The position numbers and the translations under genes are program-made. A DNA stretch of 64,000 nt from Sweltsa coloradensis (lineage: Eukaryota; Arthropoda; Insecta; Plecoptera; Chloroperlidae), in assembly GCA_024449915.1 (NCBI GenBank), contig JAMZAV010000310.1, positions 1 through 64,000 on the forward strand, read 5' to 3'. Shown here in pieces: positions 19,945 through 64,000 of the stretch (positions are counted from its first letter, which is position 1; each line of letters begins with the position of its first letter). Below the pieces are notes generated by a model. That model worked only from the letters and a program-made list of their open reading frames with translations. It did not search any database and had not been told where the DNA came from.

Positions 19945-20116
19945 TTAACGGCTGTACGGCGATGGTGTACGACTAGTAGCTCTGAGAGGCGAGTGGCTTC
20001 CATTGGACCAGTTGCTGCGTGGCGACATACTGCAACTGCTGCGGCTGTGGTGGCTGCTGTTGGAGGAAGGGGTGGGAGGAGTTGGGCGGTGGTAGGGGAT
20101 GGGTCGCTTACGAGCA
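19945..20116 (-). CDS. Srrm234: Terminal exon carrying the eMIC core
   Basis: Opens after TTGGTTTTCAG|T and reads SARKRPIPYHRPTPPTPSS, then a Ser/His/Arg-rich tail with SPRSNWSNGSHSPL and RTPSPYSR, stopping at TAA 19945-19947. The RKRPIPY.RP core is the signature of the eMIC domain of SRRM3/SRRM4, which binds early spliceosome components and promotes inclusion of neural microexons. It joins in phase with the RRIT end of the 27013 exon to give RRITSARKRPIPYHRP, the same order as vertebrate SRRM4. The polypyrimidine tract before the acceptor is weak, which would suit regulated use. Confidence 0.93.
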
Positions 20117-27012: not shown

Positions 27013-27300
27013 CTTGTGATGCGTCTCCTGTCCAGGAAGCTGGGGGACCCCCTCCTCCTAGGAATGGAGGGGGAACGAGACCGGGAAGAGTGGCTGCTAG
27101 GTGGACCCTTGCTCTTCCGCGAGACGGTGCTGTGCGAGTCGCTACTCGAACTGCTCGGTGAGCGACTGCGCGACCGACTGGCCGACCGCGAGCGACTCCG
27201 CGTTCGAGATCGACTGCGAGAGCGGCTGGCGGAGGGCGAGCGACTTCGCGAGCGCGAACTGCTGCCAGACGAGAAACTCTTCACGCTGCGCCTAGAAGAA
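27013..27300 (-). CDS. Srrm234: SRRM RS exon carrying the first half of the eMIC domain
   Basis: Between CTCCCCAG| and ACAAG|GTAAGA, phase 2 on both sides. The first 60 residues are nearly pure RS/SR. The last 30 include SIPRRRGSPSFLDRRRIT, which matches the segment just before the RKRPIPY core of the vertebrate SRRM3/SRRM4 eMIC domain (human SRRM4: RRRDSPSHLEARRIT). The eMIC core lies on the next exon, so this exon alone does not give a functional eMIC. GC and CpG content are far above the flanking introns. A 211-224 bp TTAA-target MITE relic begins about 68 bp beyond its donor. Confidence 0.92.
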
Positions 27301-32688: not shown

Positions 32689-34560
32689 CTTTTGCTGTAT
32701 GATGACTGTGAAGAACTTCTAGACTTGTGCGACTTGGGAGAACCTTTGCTTGAATGGCCAGGTGACCTTGATCTTGACCTACTACTGGAGACAGACTGGC
32801 GTCGCCGTATTGTCCCTTCGTCACTCTTTGTTATCTTGGGGTCCGCATTGATCGGAGTAGTTTCTCCTTGCGAATCTTTTTTCTTCAAGCTGGAGTGTCT
32901 GGCCGGGGGTGAACCCGGTGGCTTGGGAATCAAGGCAGGCTGGAGAGGTAGAGGATAATCAGGACTTTTCGGTACTATCGAGGATGTTGAAACAGGACTT
33001 TCATGCTGTTCTTCTAGCGACTTTTGAATGTCTTTACTTTCTTCTCTGTCCGGCAAATTTATATCGAAATACATGCCGGCACCACTATAGAGAGTAGCTG
33101 TAACCGGTTCATCTAGTTCATTAGCAGTGGCCAGTTTATCATCTTTTTTCATTGCTTTATATTCGGGAGACAATTTCGACAATTTTTTCCCCAGAGACTC
33201 CTTTGCTTTTTCGGCCAGTCCTGTTTGCAACATTTTTAGGGTCTGAATTTCCTTTTCATCCTCTTTTTCCTTCTCGCGATTAACCTTTTCGTCTACTTCA
33301 TCCTCTTCTTCAAGACTCGATGAGCGAAGTCTTACTCTGGGCATCACTAAAGAAGGGCGACAATTTCTCGAGTGGGAACGAGACCTAGAACGGGATTTGG
33401 CATTTTTCCTAGCAGACTTCTCTGCGGTTTTAGTAAGAGATATACCCTTCTTTGACGCGGATCTAACTTTATAGCTTTCCGAGTTCTTTCCGCTCGGGGA
33501 ACGGCTGCAACTTGATCTTGCACTACTACTTCGACTGCTCATGCTTTTATTTCTTTCTCGGTGTTCGTGGGAGGTGACTTTCTTCGGTGGTTCAGCTCTC
33601 TCGCGATGCGGAGAGGGGGAATCCCGCCCTCTATCTCTCTCCCGCCTCGGAGGAGATTTAGCCCCACTTCCGCGAGGGTAATCTCGCCGATGGTACACTG
33701 GAGACCTCGACTCTCGCCTCCTGTCTCTGCTGCCTTTCTCGCTTCTGGACTGGCCATATTTGGGAGACGTCTTGCGAGATTGTTTCCGCACCGGAGACCG
33801 GCTAATTGTTCTAGATGAACGCCTCTTTAGCCCTGGAGACGGAGACTTGCAAGATTTATTCCGTTTGGGAGATGTCGTACCCAAGATATTCGTCATGCCC
33901 CTTGATCGATGTAGTTTATGGTAAGGTGAATGCGACCTGCTTTTGGAATGCTGCGACCTCATGACTACAAGAGGAGAGTGAGACTTACTTTTCTTCTCTC
34001 TTCTGACTGAGGGGGATCTGCTATTTGTGGGTGATTTACGTCTTGGTTCTACCTTCCTCCTCGGCGACGTATTATGCTTGCGCACAGCCCATTCGGAATA
34101 TCTTGAATAGTTTGCCGGGGGTGACTTACTGCGATTTCGAGATTCTGAAGATTTAGGTAATTTCTTTGCACTTTTATCACGTTGATACTTGCTGGGAGAG
34201 CGAGAACGGCTTTTGCGTTCATGTTTATGAATGGATGATGATCTGGATCGTCTGGACTTGGAGCGTTTGCCATCTTTCTCCTGGTTATGAGCATGATCAA
34301 CCTTCTTCATACCTGGTGAACGCGAGTGCCGCATGCTTTCAGAAGAAGAATCTCCATCTTTTGCTCTTCTATTTTTCCCATCACTCTTGTCATTCTTCCC
34401 ATTTAGCTTGCTTATACTAGATTCATTGCTCTTTGTGTAGGGCTTGTCTAAAGTATGCATGAACTGATTAAGTTTGTTTCGACTTGGAGAGGATATGAGA
34501 TGTTTAGAACCATTTTTATTTTGAAGGAAGTTGATTTTGGCAGATTTTCTTTCTGGTGAA
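32689..34560 (-). CDS. Srrm234: SRRM giant RS-repeat exon (about 624 codons)
   Basis: Begins after TTTTCAG| and ends at AAAAG|GTAAGG, phase 2 in and out. The first two thirds are dense RS/SP repeats (for example SRSHSP, RRKSPTNSRSPS), the low-complexity phospho-substrate region that makes up most of SRRM2. At about 33.05-33.35 kb the composition changes: an acidic Glu/Asp-Lys stretch, a probable helix LQTGLAEKAKESLGKKL, then YSGAGMYFDINLPD, which is not RS-like and may be a conserved short motif. RS repeats resume to the end. Long single exons of this type are typical of SRRM2. The in-frame ATG at 34460 is internal; the exon clearly extends 100 bp further upstream. Confidence 0.92.
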
Positions 34561-41481: not shown

Positions 41482-41546
41482 CTGCCACTTGCAACATCAG
41501 AAGAAGATTCACACCTCTTTTTTGACACACTTTCATCTCGTTTTTT
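41482..41546 (-). CDS. Srrm234: SRRM internal exon, 65 bp, phase 0 to phase 2
   Basis: Between CCTTTAG| and GGCAG|GTAAAT. It reads KKRDESVSKKRCESSSDVAS and Gly, then the leftover AG joins the T of the giant exon to make Ser. It is assigned to the gene by phase compatibility on both sides and by composition. The 65-bp size is small for an exon but above the usual microexon range of 27 nt or less. It could also be joined to the SRRM4-like first exon if that ends at 57898 in phase 0. Confidence 0.8.
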
Positions 41547-45858: not shown

Positions 45859-45973
45859 CTCAGAGCGAGACCGCTTATCCTTAGACACGCTATCCGACTT
45901 CTCTGATGTCTTGCGACGGTGTTTATTCTTGTCTCTCTTCTTGCGTGTCTTACTCTTTGGAGAATCCGAGTCA
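45859..45973 (-). CDS. Srrm234: SRRM internal exon ending in phase 0
   Basis: A 115-bp exon between TAATTTCAG| and TCTGAG|GTAACT. It enters in phase 2 and leaves in phase 0, encoding SDSDSPKSKTRKKRDKNK, then HRRKTSEKSDSVSKDKRSRS and Glu. The next exon (41546) enters in phase 0, so the two must be used, or skipped, together. A Tigger-like MITE lies only 37 bp upstream of this acceptor, leaving just the branch-site region between them. Confidence 0.85.
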
Positions 45974-47040: not shown

Positions 47041-47175
47041 CTGCTCGAGTCGGAGCTGTCACTTGAAGAGGACGACGAATCCGACGACGAAGACCTGTGT
47101 CGTTTGTGACGTTCCTTCTCCTTCTTCTTTTCTTTCAAGGTGGACTTCTTCTTGGCATGTTTTGGAGACTCGGAT
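47041..47175 (-). CDS. Srrm234: SRRM internal exon, Lys-rich then poly-Ser/Asp
   Basis: A 135-bp exon between TTGCTTAG| and GCAG|GTATGT, phase 2 on both sides. It reads RSESPKHAKKKSTL, then a Lys/Glu/Arg helix-like stretch, then an acidic serine run (SSSSDSSSSSSDSSDSS). Alternating basic and phospho-acceptor Ser/Asp stretches are typical of SRRM proteins. The exon is symmetric and could be a cassette. Confidence 0.86.
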
Positions 47176-50787: not shown

Positions 50788-50853
50788 CTGTCTTTCTTGT
50801 GTTTTTTAGATTTCTTCTTTTTCTTGTCTCGCTTTGTTTCCGGACTAGACGAA
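50788..50853 (-). CDS. Srrm234: SRRM internal exon, Ser/Lys-rich (22 codons)
   Basis: A 66-bp exon between TTTTCAG| and GACAG|GTAACA, phase 2 on both sides. It encodes SSSPETKRDKKKKK followed by SKKHKKD. The poly-Lys stretch after SSSP resembles the region that follows the FGIS block in human SRRM2 and the KKKKKKSSKKHKR stretch of SRRM4. As a symmetric 66-nt exon it can be skipped without a frameshift. It is too short to identify on its own; the call rests on splice phase, spacing and composition. Confidence 0.85.
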
Positions 50854-51652: not shown

Positions 51653-51907
51653 CTGTCTCTCCCTTTCCTCTTTTTATTCTTGGTGGTGTCTGGCTCGACC
51701 TGTTCGGGACTCGGAGTTCGAATGAGAGGATACTTCCGGATCTGCTCTGCAGCAGCCTTTGCTGCAGCCTTCGCTTGAGCCTCCTTTGCATGACGTTGTG
51801 GGTCCAGACTACTTCCCTCCACAAAGTATTCGGATATCCCAAACGCTTCGCGCAGTTTGGCATTCTTTTCCTGCTGGGCCTCGGCAATTTGATGTGTTTC
51901 GCGAACA
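51653..51907 (-). CDS. Srrm234: SRRM2-family conserved exon (ETHQ/FGIS block)
   Basis: The exon opens after TGTGAACAG| and closes at GACAG|GTAGAC, phase 2 in and out. It encodes THQIAE, then FGISEYFVEGSSLDPQR, then an Ala/Lys-rich helix, a PLIRTPSPEQ segment and a basic tail. Human SRRM2 has the same order just after its cwf21 domain: THQLAE, FGISDSYVDGSSFDPQR, then PYSLVRESSSSRSPTP. This is the most diagnostic SRRM2 block in the window, and it identifies the gene as the SRRM2 lineage rather than a generic RS protein. Residues upstream of RETHQ in the same frame (NSLFVNS) fall in the intron. The preceding exon, expected to carry cwf21, was not found between this exon and the satellite array. 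Confidence 0.92.
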
Positions 51908-53288: not shown

Positions 53289-53510
53289 TATTCTTCTGTT
53301 GGATTTATGTCATGGAAGTCAACATTCACAACAACTTGCAGTAAAGTAAAGGTTTGTTCTGTTGTCCCGGTGTCTCAATTGGTAGAGCTACGGCACGTTA
53401 AGCCGGAGGTTCTGGGTTCAAACTCCAGTCGAGGCAAACTTTTACGACAACTGCTATGAATCAACAACTATGGCCTTAAAGCGGGCTTATGCTTAAAATC
53501 CTTATGTGCA
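53289..53510 (+). repeat. tRNA-derived SINE, Asn-like head, copy 1
   Basis: A tRNA-like head at about 53371-53438: TGTCTCAATTGGTAGAGC (A box), anticodon arm CGGC-ACGTTAA-GCCG, GGTTCAAACTCC (B box). The tail AACTTTTACGACAACTGC runs to TAAAGCGGGCTTATGCTTAA. A near-identical copy follows 302 bp downstream, including about 80 bp before the head. Confidence 0.85.
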
Positions 53511-53590: not shown

Positions 53591-53770
53591 TCTGTTGGAT
53601 TTATGTCATGAGAGTCAACATTCACAACAACTAGCAGTTTAGTAAAGGTTTATTCTGTTGTCCCGTTGGCTCAATTGGTATAGCTATGGCACGTTAAGCC
53701 GGAGGTTCTGGGTTTGACCCCAGTCGGGGCAAACTTTTACAACAACTGCTATGAATCAATAATAATAATA
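53591..53770 (+). repeat. tRNA-derived SINE, copy 2 with (AAT)n
   Basis: Same upstream segment, head and T-arm as copy 1 (GGTTTGACCCC B box) and a tail that goes straight into (AAT)n without the AAAGCGGG block. Confidence 0.85.
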
Positions 53771-56649: not shown

Positions 56650-56870
56650 GGATTAAGGACGCGCCAACCGTTGGGTCATAACCATAATGTACCACTCTAA
56701 CCTAGGGGGGGGGGGAAGAGGGGCCCTCAGAACCAGCCACGGGTAAGGGGAGGAAGGGGGGTTTCTCACGTCGCGGTCGTCATCGTCTTTGTCATAGTTC
56801 GTTGTGTCATTGTCATCGTCGTCGGAGAGGTCGTCAAGGGAAGGGGGCAAGGTCCGCGACGATGATTGCC
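56650..56870. repeat. Dispersed repeat related to 50100-50240
   Basis: Shares CAGAACCAGCCAC, TCTCACGTCGCGGTCGTC and GTCATTGTCATCGTCGTC with the 50-kb copy. The acidic minus-strand ORF here is a by-product of the GTC/ATC triplets. Confidence 0.6.
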
Positions 56871-57730
56871 AGAGCTCGCCTCTATTTTCGGGGAGTAAAA
56901 TACTATCCTTCATACTAGCTGATGTTTGCGAGGTGGACTTTTTCTCTTGAATCGCCTTTTACGATTAGCAGAGCCATGCTCTGGGCCAATTCTACCCCGG
57001 GCCCAGACGGGGGCCCACTAATTGGTTTTGTTATAAGGGGATAGGACATACGTGTTAAATCGTTATTGTTTTAGTCTTAAGAAATTTGTTATAACACAAA
57101 CAAAATTCTTAGGACGGACCAATCAGACGTCAATAATCCTTACGACGACCAATGAAAATTGAAAAGTAGTAACTTCAGGCAACTAAAACAAGACTAACCA
57201 ATCAGCTATCTTAACAAAATTGGACCCATTGAAACTGCGAACTGTGTTGGAGGTTGCAAGATGCAGGTACGAAGTACATGACAGTGACACCAAGGAAAGT
57301 CGGTTCGAACTTCGAATACTACATAAGAAATGGATTTTTAATGAAGAAAAATTATTGCTTTTCATCCTGAACTAGCACCAGTCATCTGTCATCATATGGA
57401 ATTTGAACATAACATCATCACAATAGTCATCTGATAGGAGGCCCAAGTATACCTTCTATTCACGGTTTGGAGGTTGTTTCGACTAATTTTTTTAACACCT
57501 ACAACAAATTGAAATATTTTCCTGCTTCCAATTTTGTATTGACATTTCCATAGAGATTAATACCTTACTAATCTCTTTTTATATTACCAACAAAATATAC
57601 AGCAGCACTATCACCTATAGATATCTTATGAAAAAACTAATGTAACCTGCTGCTTCTACACAAACACAATTGTACGAATGTACACCAATGATAACGGGCA
57701 ATCAACGTGACACGTAACGTAACTACCAAC
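56871..57730. other. SRRM intron downstream of the alternative first exon, nothing recognised
   Basis: AT-rich; no repeat boundaries identified. Confidence 0.4.
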
Positions 57731-58140
57731 CTGACGACGGACCGAAGCGTTTTCCGAGAGTTGCGCGGGGTAAGCAGGCATATTTGCAGATTGGCGAGAG
57801 GGTGATGCTGCGGCGGCGGCGGCAGGGGGAGAATATGAGACACGCAGTGACAGCAACACGGTTGTACGACAGTTCGTTCCCTCCTCGTCGCGATTACCCC
57901 GAGATTAGCACGCGCGACGTGTTGCCCGACGGCGGCGGCGGCCGGCAGCGTCCGTTGTTCCACGATCGCCTGGAACGTGCCTCGCCACAATCGCTCGAAC
58001 AGCACCCTCTCGTCCACGGGCCGACGTCTCGGGCACGCGGCCGTAGTCGAGCGCGAGGTGACCACATGGTCAGAGAACAACATAGCACGACGAAAAAATA
58101 GGCTTCGATTGGGGTTACCGTAAAGCGCGAGAACATGAAG
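57720..58140 (-). promoter_or_regulatory. GC- and CpG-rich island around the SRRM4-like first exon
   Basis: By eye this is the most GC- and CpG-dense stretch outside transposons, with repeated CGG and CGCG. It coincides with the SRRM4-like exon and suggests an internal promoter. No TATA or initiator could be assigned. Confidence 0.4.
57731..58083 (-). CDS. Srrm234: Alternative first coding exon with SRRM4-like N-terminus
   Basis: The minus-strand frame from the ATG at 58083 reads LFERLWRGTFQAI at residues 29-41. This closely matches the N-terminus of vertebrate SRRM4, which I recall as LFEKFWRGTFKAV near residue 11; a looser match continues to about residue 61 (ARANL). The conserved part ends at a possible donor GGG|GTAATC (57898, phase 0). 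A second possible donor CAG|GTTGGT at 57731 leaves phase 2, which matches the incoming phase of the exons at 51907, 50853, 47175 and 34560, so I extended the exon to it; residues 63-117 are not conserved to my eye. The ATG at 58083 is the nearest in-frame one upstream of the motif; another lies at 58143. The stretch is much richer in GC and CpG than its surroundings, as expected of a promoter and first exon. The identity of the motif is firmer than the exon ends. Confidence 0.62.
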
Positions 58141-59334
58141 CACCTTGCGAAAACGCAGAGTTAAAAGTTAGTTACTAAGTATGTGTATATATATATATAT
58201 ATATTAAACTAATGGAAGACAACGACGCAGGCACCAAGTTAGGTAATCGGCTACTGGAAAGTAGCACGATTTGGAAGACTTTGGATTTTGCGACCTCACA
58301 CAAACGCCGTATGTATCTACATGTTGGCCTGACGCGCGCGATGTGGTCACTTGTTACCCGAGGCCAACACTCGACTCACTAACAGAAGCCAGTGTTCTAT
58401 GAGAAGGAGTTGGCTGCGTTTCGCGCCGGCGCATATCGTAAGGGTTGCAGATATAGAATTTTGGGATGAGAGTCCCTCCCCCGGCATCCCCCATAGCAGT
58501 TTGCTCTCCCAATCCCCTTCATTTCCTCCCTCTCACACTAGCAAAGAGGAAAATCGATCTGGTCGTCGTCCGTGGTGGCCGATTGTACTCGGCGGAGAAG
58601 GGAGAAATTTCATATCCACATATTGCCGGAGCGCGTAATGAAACATTTCCAATGCAGCAATGCGGATTCCTTGAGTAGCTTACTCTCGTCACTAAGGTGC
58701 AAGATTCTCAAGAGTGCACGCTAGCTAATATCCTAGCTAAAGCCGCCACGCGGTTCCATTCAACTCTCCTTTTCACGAAATTTTAATATCTTACGAAACA
58801 GACATTTACTTTGGCAGTGGTCCACATGAATCTTCGAACTTAGCTCACCGAGTAGGTAGTAGAAGAACGGAAGGAAGCTGTAGTAACTTCTCCCACAACA
58901 CTCCCAAAAGAGATCGTATAGCCTGGATCGCAGTCAACGCTCATTCGAACCTTGCGTTTCATTCCATCAACAATTCACAAGAAATATAACAAAACGTACA
59001 ATCGTGTACCTTCCTTCATAGCATATAGTTCATCTCAATCTCCTCACAAATATGATCAATGATCATATATCAACAAATCATTTGTCCCGCCGCCCGCGCT
59101 TCCATAGTAATTAGCAAGTGGTTTGTCTAGCTAGCAGATCCGAGTAGAATGGGTGATAATATGTAACAACGATATTAATTTGATGAAACTTTTAGAGCAG
59201 GTGAGGTAATTGTAATTACTCAATTGGACTAAACACTGCACTTTAATAAATAAATAACAAGATTTTAAACGGGATAAAGCGACCTCCTTGTTCATTCTGC
59301 ACAAAAATAATAAGACATGTCATGTACACATTGT
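58141..59334. other. No gene recognised upstream of the alternative first exon
   Basis: A (TA)n tract at 58183-58204 and moderately GC-rich sequence to 58.7 kb. Short plus-strand ORFs (58351-58638, 58466-58678) overlap each other in two frames and are not supported. Confidence 0.4.
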
Positions 59335-59879: not shown

Positions 59880-62800
59880 TACGACTCTACACAATGTGAC
59901 AACCATTACAATCATAGGCAAAGTGGAAGTTGCTTTGCAGCTTTGACACAACGTAAGAACTGATGCGAACTGATGCTGAGAGCTGATGTGTACCGGGTGA
60001 AACTGATTAGGAACGGCACGGCATAGATACCGATATACCGATACCGGCAGCTCAGACTGAAAGTTTGTCCTTGGGGATTGCATCCTCTCAAACAGCCATA
60101 GGCCTATGTGCCTGACTACACAAAGTGACAACCATTACAATCATAGGCAAAGTGGAAGTTGCTTTGCAGCTGTGACACAACGTAAGAACTGATGCGAACT
60201 GATGCTGGAGCTGATGTGTACCGGGTGAAACTGATTAGGAACGGCACGGCATAGATACCGATATACCGATACCGGCAGCTCAGACTGAAAGTTTGTCCTT
60301 GGGGATTGCATCCTCTCAAACAGCCATAGGCCTATGTGCCTGACTACACAAAGTGACAACCATTATAATCATAGGCAAAGTGGAAGTTGCTTTGCAGCTG
60401 TGACACAACGTAAGAACTGATGCGAACTGATGCTGAGAGCTGATGTGTACCGGGTGAAACTGATTAGGAACGGCACGGCATAGATACCGATATACCGATA
60501 CCGGCAGCTCAGACTGAAAGTTTGTCCTTGGGGATTGCATCCTCTCAAACAGCCATAGGCCTATGTGCCTGACTACACAAAGTGACAACCATTACAATCA
60601 TAGGCAAAGTGGAAGTTGCTTTGCAGCTGTGACACAACGTAAGAACTGATGCGAACTGATGCTGAGAGCTGATGTGTACCGGGTGAAACTGATTAGGAAC
60701 GGCACGGCATAGATACCGATATACCGATACCGGCAGCTCAGACTGAAAGTTTGTCCTTGGGGATTGCATCCTCTCAAACAGTCATAGGCCTATGTGCCTG
60801 ACTCTACACAAAGTGACAACCATTACAATCATAGGCAAAGTGGAAGTTGCTTTGCAGCTGTGACACAACGTAAGAACTGATGCGAACTGATGCTGGGAGC
60901 TGATGTGTACCGGGTGAAACTGATTAGGAACGGCACGGCATAGATACCGATATACCGATACCGGCAGCTCAGACTGAAAGTTTGTCCTTGGGGATTGCAT
61001 CCTCTCAAACAGCCGTAGGCCTATGTGCCTGACTCTACACAAAGTGACAACCATTATAATCATAGGATAGGCAAAGTGGAAGTTGCTTTGCAGCTGTGAC
61101 ACAACGTAAGAACTGATGCGAACTGATGCTGAGAGCTGATGTGTACCGGGTGAAACTGATTAGGAACGGCACGGCATAGATACCGATATACCGATACCGG
61201 CAGCTCAGACTGAAAGTTTGTCCTTTTGGGATTGCATCCTCTCAAACAGCCATAGGCCTATGTGCCTGACTACACAAAGTGACAACCATTACAATCATAG
61301 GCAAAGTGGAAGTTGCTTTGCAGCTTTGACACAACGTAAGAACTGATGCGAACTGATGCTGAGAGCTGATGTGTACCGGGTGAAACTGATTAGGAACGGC
61401 ACGGCATAGATACCGATATACCGATACCGGCAGCTCAGACTGAAAGTTTGTCCTTGGGGATTGCATCCTCTCAAACAGCCATAGGCCTATGTGCCTGACT
61501 ACACAAAGTGACAACCATTACAATCATAGGATAGGCAAAGTGGAAGTTGCTTTGCAGCTGTGACACAACGTAAGAACTGATGCGAACTGATGCTGAGAGC
61601 TGATGTGTACCGGGTGAAACTGATTAGGAACGGCACGGCATAGATACCGATATACCGATACCGGCAGCTCAGACTGAAAGTTTGTCCTTGGGGATTGCAT
61701 CCTCTCAAACAGTCATAGGCCTAAGTGCCTGACTACACAAAGTGACAACCATTACAATCATAGGCAAAGTGGAAGTTGCTTTGCAGCTGTGACACAACGT
61801 AAGAACTGATGCGAACTGATGCTGAGAGCTGATGTGTCACGGGTGAAACTGATTAGGAACGGCACGGCATAGATACCGATATACCGATACCGGCAGCTCA
61901 GACTGAAAGTTTTGTCCTTGGGGATTGCATCCTCTCAAACAGCCATAGGCCTATGTGCCTGACTCTACACAAAGTGACAACCATTATAATCATAGGCAAA
62001 GTGGAAGTTGCTTTGCAGCTGTGACACAACGTAAGAACTGATGCGAACTGATGCTGGGAGCTGATGTGTACCGGGTTGAAACTGATTAGGAACGGCACGG
62101 CATAGATACCGATATACCGAAACCGGCAGCTCAGACTGAAAGTTTGTCCTTGGGGATCGCATCCTCTCAAACAGTCATAGGCCTATGTGCCTGACTACAC
62201 AAAGTGACAACCATTATAATCATAGGCAAAGTGGAAGTTGCTTTGCAGCTGTGACACAACGTAAGAACTGATGCGAACTGATGCTGGGAGCTGATGTGTA
62301 CCGGGTGAAACTGATTAGGAACGGCACGGCATAGATACCGATATACCGATACCGGCAGTTCAGACTGAAAGTTTGTCCTTGGGGATTGCATCCTCTCAAA
62401 CAGTCATAGGCCTATGTGCCTGACTCTACACAAAGTGACAACCATTACAATCATAGGCAAAGTGGAAGTTGCTTTGCAGCTGTGACACAACGTAAGAACT
62501 GATGCGAACTGATGCTGGGAGCTGATGTGTACCGGGTGAAACTGATTAGGAACGGCACGGCATAGATACCGATATACCGATACCGGCAGCTCAGACTGAA
62601 AGTTTGTCCTTGGGGATTGCATCCTCTCAAACAGCCATAGGCCTATGTGCCTGACTACACAAAGTGACAACCATTACAATCATAGGCAAAGTGGAAGTTG
62701 CTTTGCAGCTGTGACACAACGTAAGAACTGATGCGAACTGATGCTGGGAGCTGATGTGTACCGGGTGAAACTGATTAGGAACGGCACGGCATAGATACCG

Positions 62801-64000
62801 ATATACCGATACCGGCAGCTCAGACTGAAAGTTTGTCCTTGGGGATTGCATCCTCTCAAACAGCCGTAGGCCTATGTGCCTGACTCTACACAAAGTGACA
62901 ACCATTACAATCATAGGCAAAGTGGAAGTTGCTTTGCAGCTGTGACACAACGTAAGAACTGATGCGAACTGATGCGGGGAGCTGAGGTGTACCGGTGAAA
63001 CTGATTAGGAACGGCACGGCATAGATACCGATATACCGATACCGGCAGCTCAGACTGAAAGTTTGTCCTTGGGGATTGCATCCTCTCAAACAGCGTAGGC
63101 CTATGTGCCTGACTCTACACAAAGTGACAACCATTACAATCATAGGCAAAGTGGAAGTTGCTTTGCAGCTGTGACACAACGTAAGAACTGATGCGAACTG
63201 ATGCTGGGAGCTGATGTGTACCGGGTGAAACTGATTAGGAACGGCACGGCATAGATACCGATATACCGATACCGGCAGCTCAGACTGAAAGTTTGTCCTT
63301 GGGGATTGCATCCTCTCAAACAGCCATAGGCCTATGTGCCTGACTCTACACAATGTGACAACCATTACAATCATAGGCAAAGTGGAAGTTGCTTTGCAGC
63401 TGTGACACAACGTAAGAACTGATGCGAACTGATGCTGAGAGCTGATGTGTACCGGGTGAAACTGATTAGGAACGGCACGGCATAGATACCGATATACCGA
63501 TACCGGCAGCTCAGACTGAAAGTTTGTCCTTGGGGATTGCATCCTCTCAAACAGCCATAGGCCTATGTGCCTGACTCTACACAATGTGACAACCATTACA
63601 ATCATAGGCAAAGCGGAAGTTGCTTTGCAGCTGAGACACAACGTAAGAACTGATGCGAACTGATGCTGGAGCTGATGTTGTACCGGGTGAAACTGATTAG
63701 GAACGGCACGGCATAGATACCGATATACCGATACCGGCTGCTCAGACTGAAAGTTTGTCCTTGGGGATTGCATCCTCTCAAACAGCCGTAGGCCTATGTG
63801 CCTGACTCTACACAAAGTGACAACCATTACAATCATAGGCAAAGTGGAAGTTGCTTTGCAGCTGTGACACAACGTAAGAACTGATGCGAACTGATGCTGG
63901 GAGCTGATGTGTACCGGGTGAAACTGATTAGGAACGGCACGGCATAGATACCGATATACCGATACCGGCAGCTCAGACTGAAAGTTTGTCCTTGGGGATT
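59880..64000. repeat. Satellite array, about 230-bp unit, 18 copies visible
   Basis: Starting from GTGACAACC at 59896, the same word recurs at 60125, 60353, 60582, 60813, 61044, 61279, 61508, 61742, 61974, 62204, 62435, 62664, 62895, 63124, 63355, 63586 and 63817, giving spacings of 228-235 bp. Units are nearly identical and differ by small indels (GACTACAC or GACTCTACAC; CAGCCATAGG, CAGTCATAGG or CAGCCGTAGG; an extra ATAGG). Each holds GATACCGATATACCGATACC and a palindrome CATAGGCCTATG. The array runs off the right edge. It carries no gene: long minus-strand ORFs arise because 231 is a multiple of three. Confidence 0.97.

Follow-up and report, generated by a model that had tools for sequence, protein, structure and literature searches.

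A candidate SRRM4-type first exon in a Srrm2/3/4 gene of Sweltsa coloradensis

The minus strand of a 64,000-nucleotide stretch of Sweltsa coloradensis DNA (the window) encodes, at positions 58002-57964, a peptide, LFERLWRGTFQAI, whose resemblance to the start of vertebrate SRRM4, a neuronal regulator of microexons, is real and goes beyond chance. The stretch around it, 57731..58083, is probably coding sequence of an alternative first exon, homologous to the vertebrate SRRM4 start, in a Srrm2/3/4 gene that is undivided. The site at which transcription starts, the use of the exon, its linkage to the eMIC, the function of the motif and the age of the promoter are points that we infer from the DNA.

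The peptide was located by reading the window in six frames. An earlier note on this DNA had reported it on the minus strand within an exon at 57731..58083, and it was found there; an ATG at 58083 and a splice donor delimit these coordinates. The N-terminus of human SRRM4, which we take to be LFEKFWRGTFKAV, belongs to a motif type that we write as LFE(K/R)xWRGTF(K/Q)A. Aligned with this working sequence, which is not a database copy, LFERLWRGTFQAI is identical at nine of 13 positions, identical or similar at all 13, and scores 58 out of 72 by BLOSUM62; the runner-up site for LFEKFWRGTFKAV in the six frames of the window scores 27. When the window was shuffled 100 times with dinucleotides preserved, the highest score was 37; 2000 shuffles of the region 57.0-59.0 kb reached at most 41, and 1000 permutations of the query run on the real window at most 39. 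None of these controls came to 58. The working SRRM4 sequence was also tested as 221 13-mers, RS-rich ones having been removed beforehand, ranked by score relative to self. The top 15 came from residues 6-28, the WRGTF motif, and 498-521, the eMIC. These two elements are the best matches of the working SRRM4 sequence in the window, and they lie on a single strand in SRRM4 order.

The matching core comprises about 16 residues, ERVLFERLWRGTFQAI, of which LFERLWRGTFQAI is the 13-residue part. A tblastn extension to 34 columns at 44 % was rejected as homology beyond this core, but not the core itself: the flank alone is at chance. When the flank after the motif was compared with SRRM4, 3027 of 5000 shuffles scored at least as high as the real sequence in local alignment, and 2291 of 5000 scored as high in anchored alignment. 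Because the flank is no better than its shuffles, the claim of homology is limited to about 16 residues. In the alignment to SRRM4 suggested earlier, made with the working human sequence, the motif is far above shuffles and permuted queries, whereas the flank is not. The SRRM4 yardstick is a working sequence and not a database copy, and the same motif as given in the earlier note is not independent of it. The working SRRM4 sequence carries R146, H154 and S155, in agreement with the text consulted of PMC13387927 (2026), a check outside which the motif letters themselves lie; a working 162-residue stretch of SRRM2 is identical to a PDB chain, which likewise does not check the SRRM4 motif letters.

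The small number of matching residues, the flank at chance and a yardstick not taken from a database would allow the resemblance to be due to chance, or to convergence on a short hydrophobic helix. We consider this highly improbable, given that all three sets of controls stayed below the real score and that the location in the gene fits. The motif is likely homologous to the SRRM4 N-terminus. Among PDB chains at E up to 10, none matched the window exon and none matched the SRRM4 N-terminus in its working version. Pattern searches in viral_contigs (80 and 54 matches) and genome_contigs (143) yielded no confirmed relative; these collections are viral and prokaryotic, and the lack of relatives there is therefore uninformative on animals. 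Six motif strings had no occurrence in the literature text searched.

The motif frame is open from 58167 to 57637, with the nearest upstream stop at 58170 and the closing stop at 57639-57637. ATG 58083 is the only in-frame ATG between stop 58170 and the motif. Its +4 position is a T, and transcripts that began further up would first meet an out-of-frame ATG at 58136. The candidate coding first exon (57731..58083, minus strand) runs from ATG 58083 to a CAG/GTTGGT donor after 57731, in phase 2, and comprises 117 codons plus two bases. On approximate splice-site tables this donor scores 2.0. Downstream of the motif the open frame holds four donors above -2, of which this is the best, and its phase matches the need of the exon at 51907. 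It is nevertheless weak, being off consensus at +3 and +4. Another donor, after 57898 (GGG/GTAATC, phase 0, score 0.12), is mismatched to the phase-2 exon at 51907 and is retained as a minor alternative; it suits the phase-0 acceptor at 41546 and would therefore skip the SRRM2-type block, like SRRM4.

The GC content by codon position is 0.68/0.55/0.79 in 58083-57898, where the third position is raised, and 0.64/0.51/0.64 in 57897-57733, where it is flat. Since the flank is at chance and the codon-position GC there is flat, the 3' part of the exon may be non-coding as drawn. This flat composition, together with the weak donor and the fact that the join to 51907 is modelled, would also fit if the exon were coding for another minus-strand gene, or if the frame were unexpressed and the motif a relic. 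We judge both distinctly unlikely. An SRRM4-type motif would then lie by coincidence upstream of an SRRM2-type exon and an eMIC, sharing their strand and fitting in phase, and a relic is not expected to retain identity or similarity at all 13 positions. As for another gene, Pfam gives no other family in the candidate exon, where it returned DUF789 only, at E 0.2 and under its cut-off. An AlphaFold2 model of the 117-residue exon product, computed from the single sequence, was discarded for its poor confidence: pLDDT averaged 37.5 and lay below 50 in the helix that the model places at residues 25-33.

The start of the candidate exon coincides with a possible promoter. The segment 57751..58250 is first in GC (0.552) and in CpG number (56) among 255 overlapping 500-base windows, and by CpG observed/expected (1.48) it ranks 11th of the 255. 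On the first two measures this agrees with the CpG-rich island described earlier. The initiator pattern TCA(G/T)T(C/T) does not occur in 58003-58900; a core-promoter motif scan gave seven matches to the looser YYANWYY and four to the DPE pattern, which are uninformative, and a simple repeat accounts for the TATATA sequence at 58191-58203. Two other open frames of the minus strand lie nearby. One, upstream of the exon at 58494-58354, starts with ATG and ends in a stop after 46 codons (MGDAGGGTLIPKFYICNPYDMRRRE...), and is perhaps due to chance or an upstream open frame. The other, at 56653-56958, carries an acidic run (SLDDLSDDDDNDTTNYDKDDDDRD) and lies in a second GC-rich stretch between the candidate exon and the SRRM2-type exon.

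The motif lies on the same strand as, and upstream of, an SRRM2-type exon and the eMIC exons. The SRRM2-type exon (51653..51907), which begins and ends in phase 2, aligns with human SRRM2 from residue 118 onward, past the cwf21 region (PDB chain 5mqf_S, E 2.9e-12). It starts 5823 bases past the end of the candidate first exon, in keeping with the distance of about 6 kb given in the earlier note. Further along the minus strand, splice sites and phase define two modelled Lys/Ser-rich exons (50788..50853 and 47041..47175) and an exon from phase 2 to phase 0 (45859..45973). A filtered search for a link from phase 0 to phase 2 listed two candidates, both with the acceptor at 41546, and one of them, 41482..41546, was used as the modelled linking exon. 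A long Arg/Ser-rich exon (32689..34560), recognised by its open frame and splice sites, is followed by another Arg/Ser-rich exon, in which the eMIC begins (27013..27300, ...FLDRRRIT), and by the last coding exon, which holds the second part (SARKRPIPYHRP...) and the stop (19945..20116). All six exons modelled between the SRRM2-type exon and the last one are rich in Lys, Ser or Arg. The last two modelled exons, when joined, match Pfam SRRM_C, the eMIC (E 1.1e-15; 58.4 bits, cut-off 27). The nine-exon model from ATG 58083 has 1106 codons and a single stop at the end, after the eMIC. Its exon limits are a splice-site reading of the DNA, and the join from 57731 to 51907 is modelled. Because the SRRM2-type block and the eMIC lie in one gene, the host would be an undivided Srrm2/3/4 gene of an invertebrate.

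Within this gene the eMIC is split at RRRIT/SARKRPIPY, in phase 2, by a 6.9-kb intron (between 27300-27013 and 20116-19945). Read-through past the donor of the first part meets an immediate stop and could give a truncated eMIC form. On the plus strand, two weak tRNA matches (53364-53436 and 53660-53731; 32.8 and 33.2 bits) are separated by about 300 bases, have similar flanks and are perhaps tRNA-derived short interspersed elements.

Pfam (E up to 1), run on all three minus-strand reading frames of 52.0-64.0 kb, did not find the cwf21 domain, and human SRRM2 residues 1-101 gave no convincing tblastn match in the whole window (best E 3.8); both searches could miss a domain split across small exons. 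Given this result for 52-64 kb, the modelled form would be cwf21-less. In 52.0-58.0 kb Pfam returned DUF2381 alone (E 0.16). In 58.0-64.0 kb several Pfam matches, two or three of them above cut-off (examples are Bac_luciferase, E 3.9e-8; EarA, 1.6e-5; Plk4_PB1, 6.2e-6), were rejected as repeats with stops read as glycine, because no single stretch passes and their positions fall inside a 231-base satellite. The satellite array, of about 18 copies of the 231-base unit with 97 % matches, occupies 59883-64000, upstream of the exon and up to the window end. Exon 51907 opens in phase 2 and corresponds to SRRM2 from residue 118, and the cwf21 exons are therefore expected beyond 64 kb; the motif exon would thus be internal to the gene.

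A cassette spliced between those cwf21 exons and exon 51907 would need a phase-2 acceptor. The interval 58190-58003 holds six AG sites, four of them in phase 2. One of the four, at 58174, has an in-frame stop (58170) behind it, and those at 58102, 58027 and 58006 score -3.87, -6.61 and -7.61, respectively, compared with -1.34 to 6.57 for the eight other modelled acceptors of the gene. The lack of a good phase-2 acceptor favours an initiating coding exon over a cassette read in frame. Acceptor 58143, in phase 0, scores -0.21, which is in the range of the gene, and the branch-point-like sequence TAACTAAC lies ahead of it. The motif exon could thus belong to the same gene without being a coding first exon: transcripts that carry cwf21 might include it as a cassette, or a noncoding exon further up might be spliced to it at 58143. 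The 5' part of the gene extends beyond the window. For the cassette, however, the phase of 58143 is not the phase 2 that exon 51907 needs from upstream coding exons, and the three stop-free phase-2 acceptors all score -3.87 or less. We consider an exon reached from upstream unlikely overall.

If the stretch is an alternative first exon, transcription would begin in the CpG-rich stretch near 58.1-58.2 kb and translation at ATG 58083. The donor after 57731 would be spliced to the SRRM2-type exon at 51907, although later phase-2 acceptors also fit. The product would carry the LFE(R/K)xWRGTF(Q/K)A motif and lack cwf21. In the assembled spliceosome, cwf21 anchors SRRM2/Cwc21 to Prp8. An eMIC form without this domain may work at the early stage of exon definition, like SRRM4, and be a microexon enhancer; the motif, perhaps a short amphipathic helix judging from how L, F, W and F are spaced, may bind some other partner. 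The low-confidence AlphaFold2 helix falls at the motif. The eMIC contacts U2AF1/2 and SF1 according to the text consulted of PMC8797185.

The earlier note had proposed an SRRM4-like first exon in a gene of the SRRM2 lineage, driven by a promoter of the ancestral gene. Strand, order, a phase-compatible donor and the finding of no cwf21 in between agree with the exon, whereas the ancestral promoter is plausible only. Homology of the motif and initiation of transcripts at the exon would together imply such a promoter, on the basis of one genome and an SRRM4 sequence not taken from a database. With a probability that we place somewhat short of even, the ancestral bilaterian Srrm2/3/4 gene had two starts (cwf21 and WRGTF) and two ends (non-eMIC and eMIC), and SRRM4 is a pre-existing WRGTF plus eMIC isoform that was fixed after duplication, not the outcome of cwf21 loss. 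If true, this would explain why SRRM4 lacks cwf21 while SRRM2 and SRRM3 have it: the cwf21-less form would predate the separation of the genes, by way of an alternative first exon. The motif would also be a second conserved element of SRRM4 besides the eMIC, and one for which the literature text consulted states no role. An SRRM4-type first exon in an invertebrate gene was not described in the literature searched, which included the consulted text of PMC8797185, PMC12626424, PMC3464207, PMC10551640, PMC7935315, PMC4459148 and PMC13281805; an earlier description is possible. The 2022 article names, in the legend of its Figure 1, "Srrm2/4-N, conserved regions at Srrm2/4 N termini" (PMC8797185), and on that account an Srrm2/4 N-terminal region has been recognised already.

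To our knowledge, vertebrate SRRM4 has neither an SRRM2-type block nor cwf21, and we know of no WRGTF start in SRRM3. The arrangement described here resembles SRRM4 (nSR100) in its N-terminal WRGTF motif, compared with the working sequence, its eMIC C-terminus and its phase-2 junctions; the modelled form would also lack cwf21, going by 52-64 kb of a gene whose 5' part lies beyond the window. It differs in that vertebrate SRRM4 is a separate gene, without the SRRM2-type block, whereas here the motif exon lies upstream of that block in one gene and the modelled form keeps the block through exon 51907-51653. About 80 residues separate motif and block, and there the resemblance to SRRM4 is at chance where tested. 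In human SRRM4 the junctions of exons 4/5 and 5/6 are of phase 2, as deduced from the exon 5 limits r.438_464 in the text consulted of PMC13387927. Exon 51907-51653 matches vertebrate SRRM2 from residue 118; SRRM2 starts with its cwf21 region, in contrast to the result for 52-64 kb. Vertebrate SRRM3 combines cwf21 (PMC4459148) and the eMIC (PMC10551640) in one gene, as the present gene would with cwf21 exons beyond 64 kb, a likeness drawn from the descriptions consulted. A parallel in layout is Drosophila Srrm234 (CG7971), in which, according to the text consulted, one gene gives SRRM2-type and eMIC forms and the eMIC end arises at the 3' side from alternative last exons (PMC8797185). Here too the SRRM2-type block and a 3' eMIC are found in one gene, whose continuity is modelled from splice sites. 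Isoform F of the fly gene has an additional 5' exon, the sequence of which is not given in the methods of PMC8797185. In Drosophila the isoform choice described in that text is made at the 3' end, whereas in S. coloradensis the proposed choice would be made at the start.
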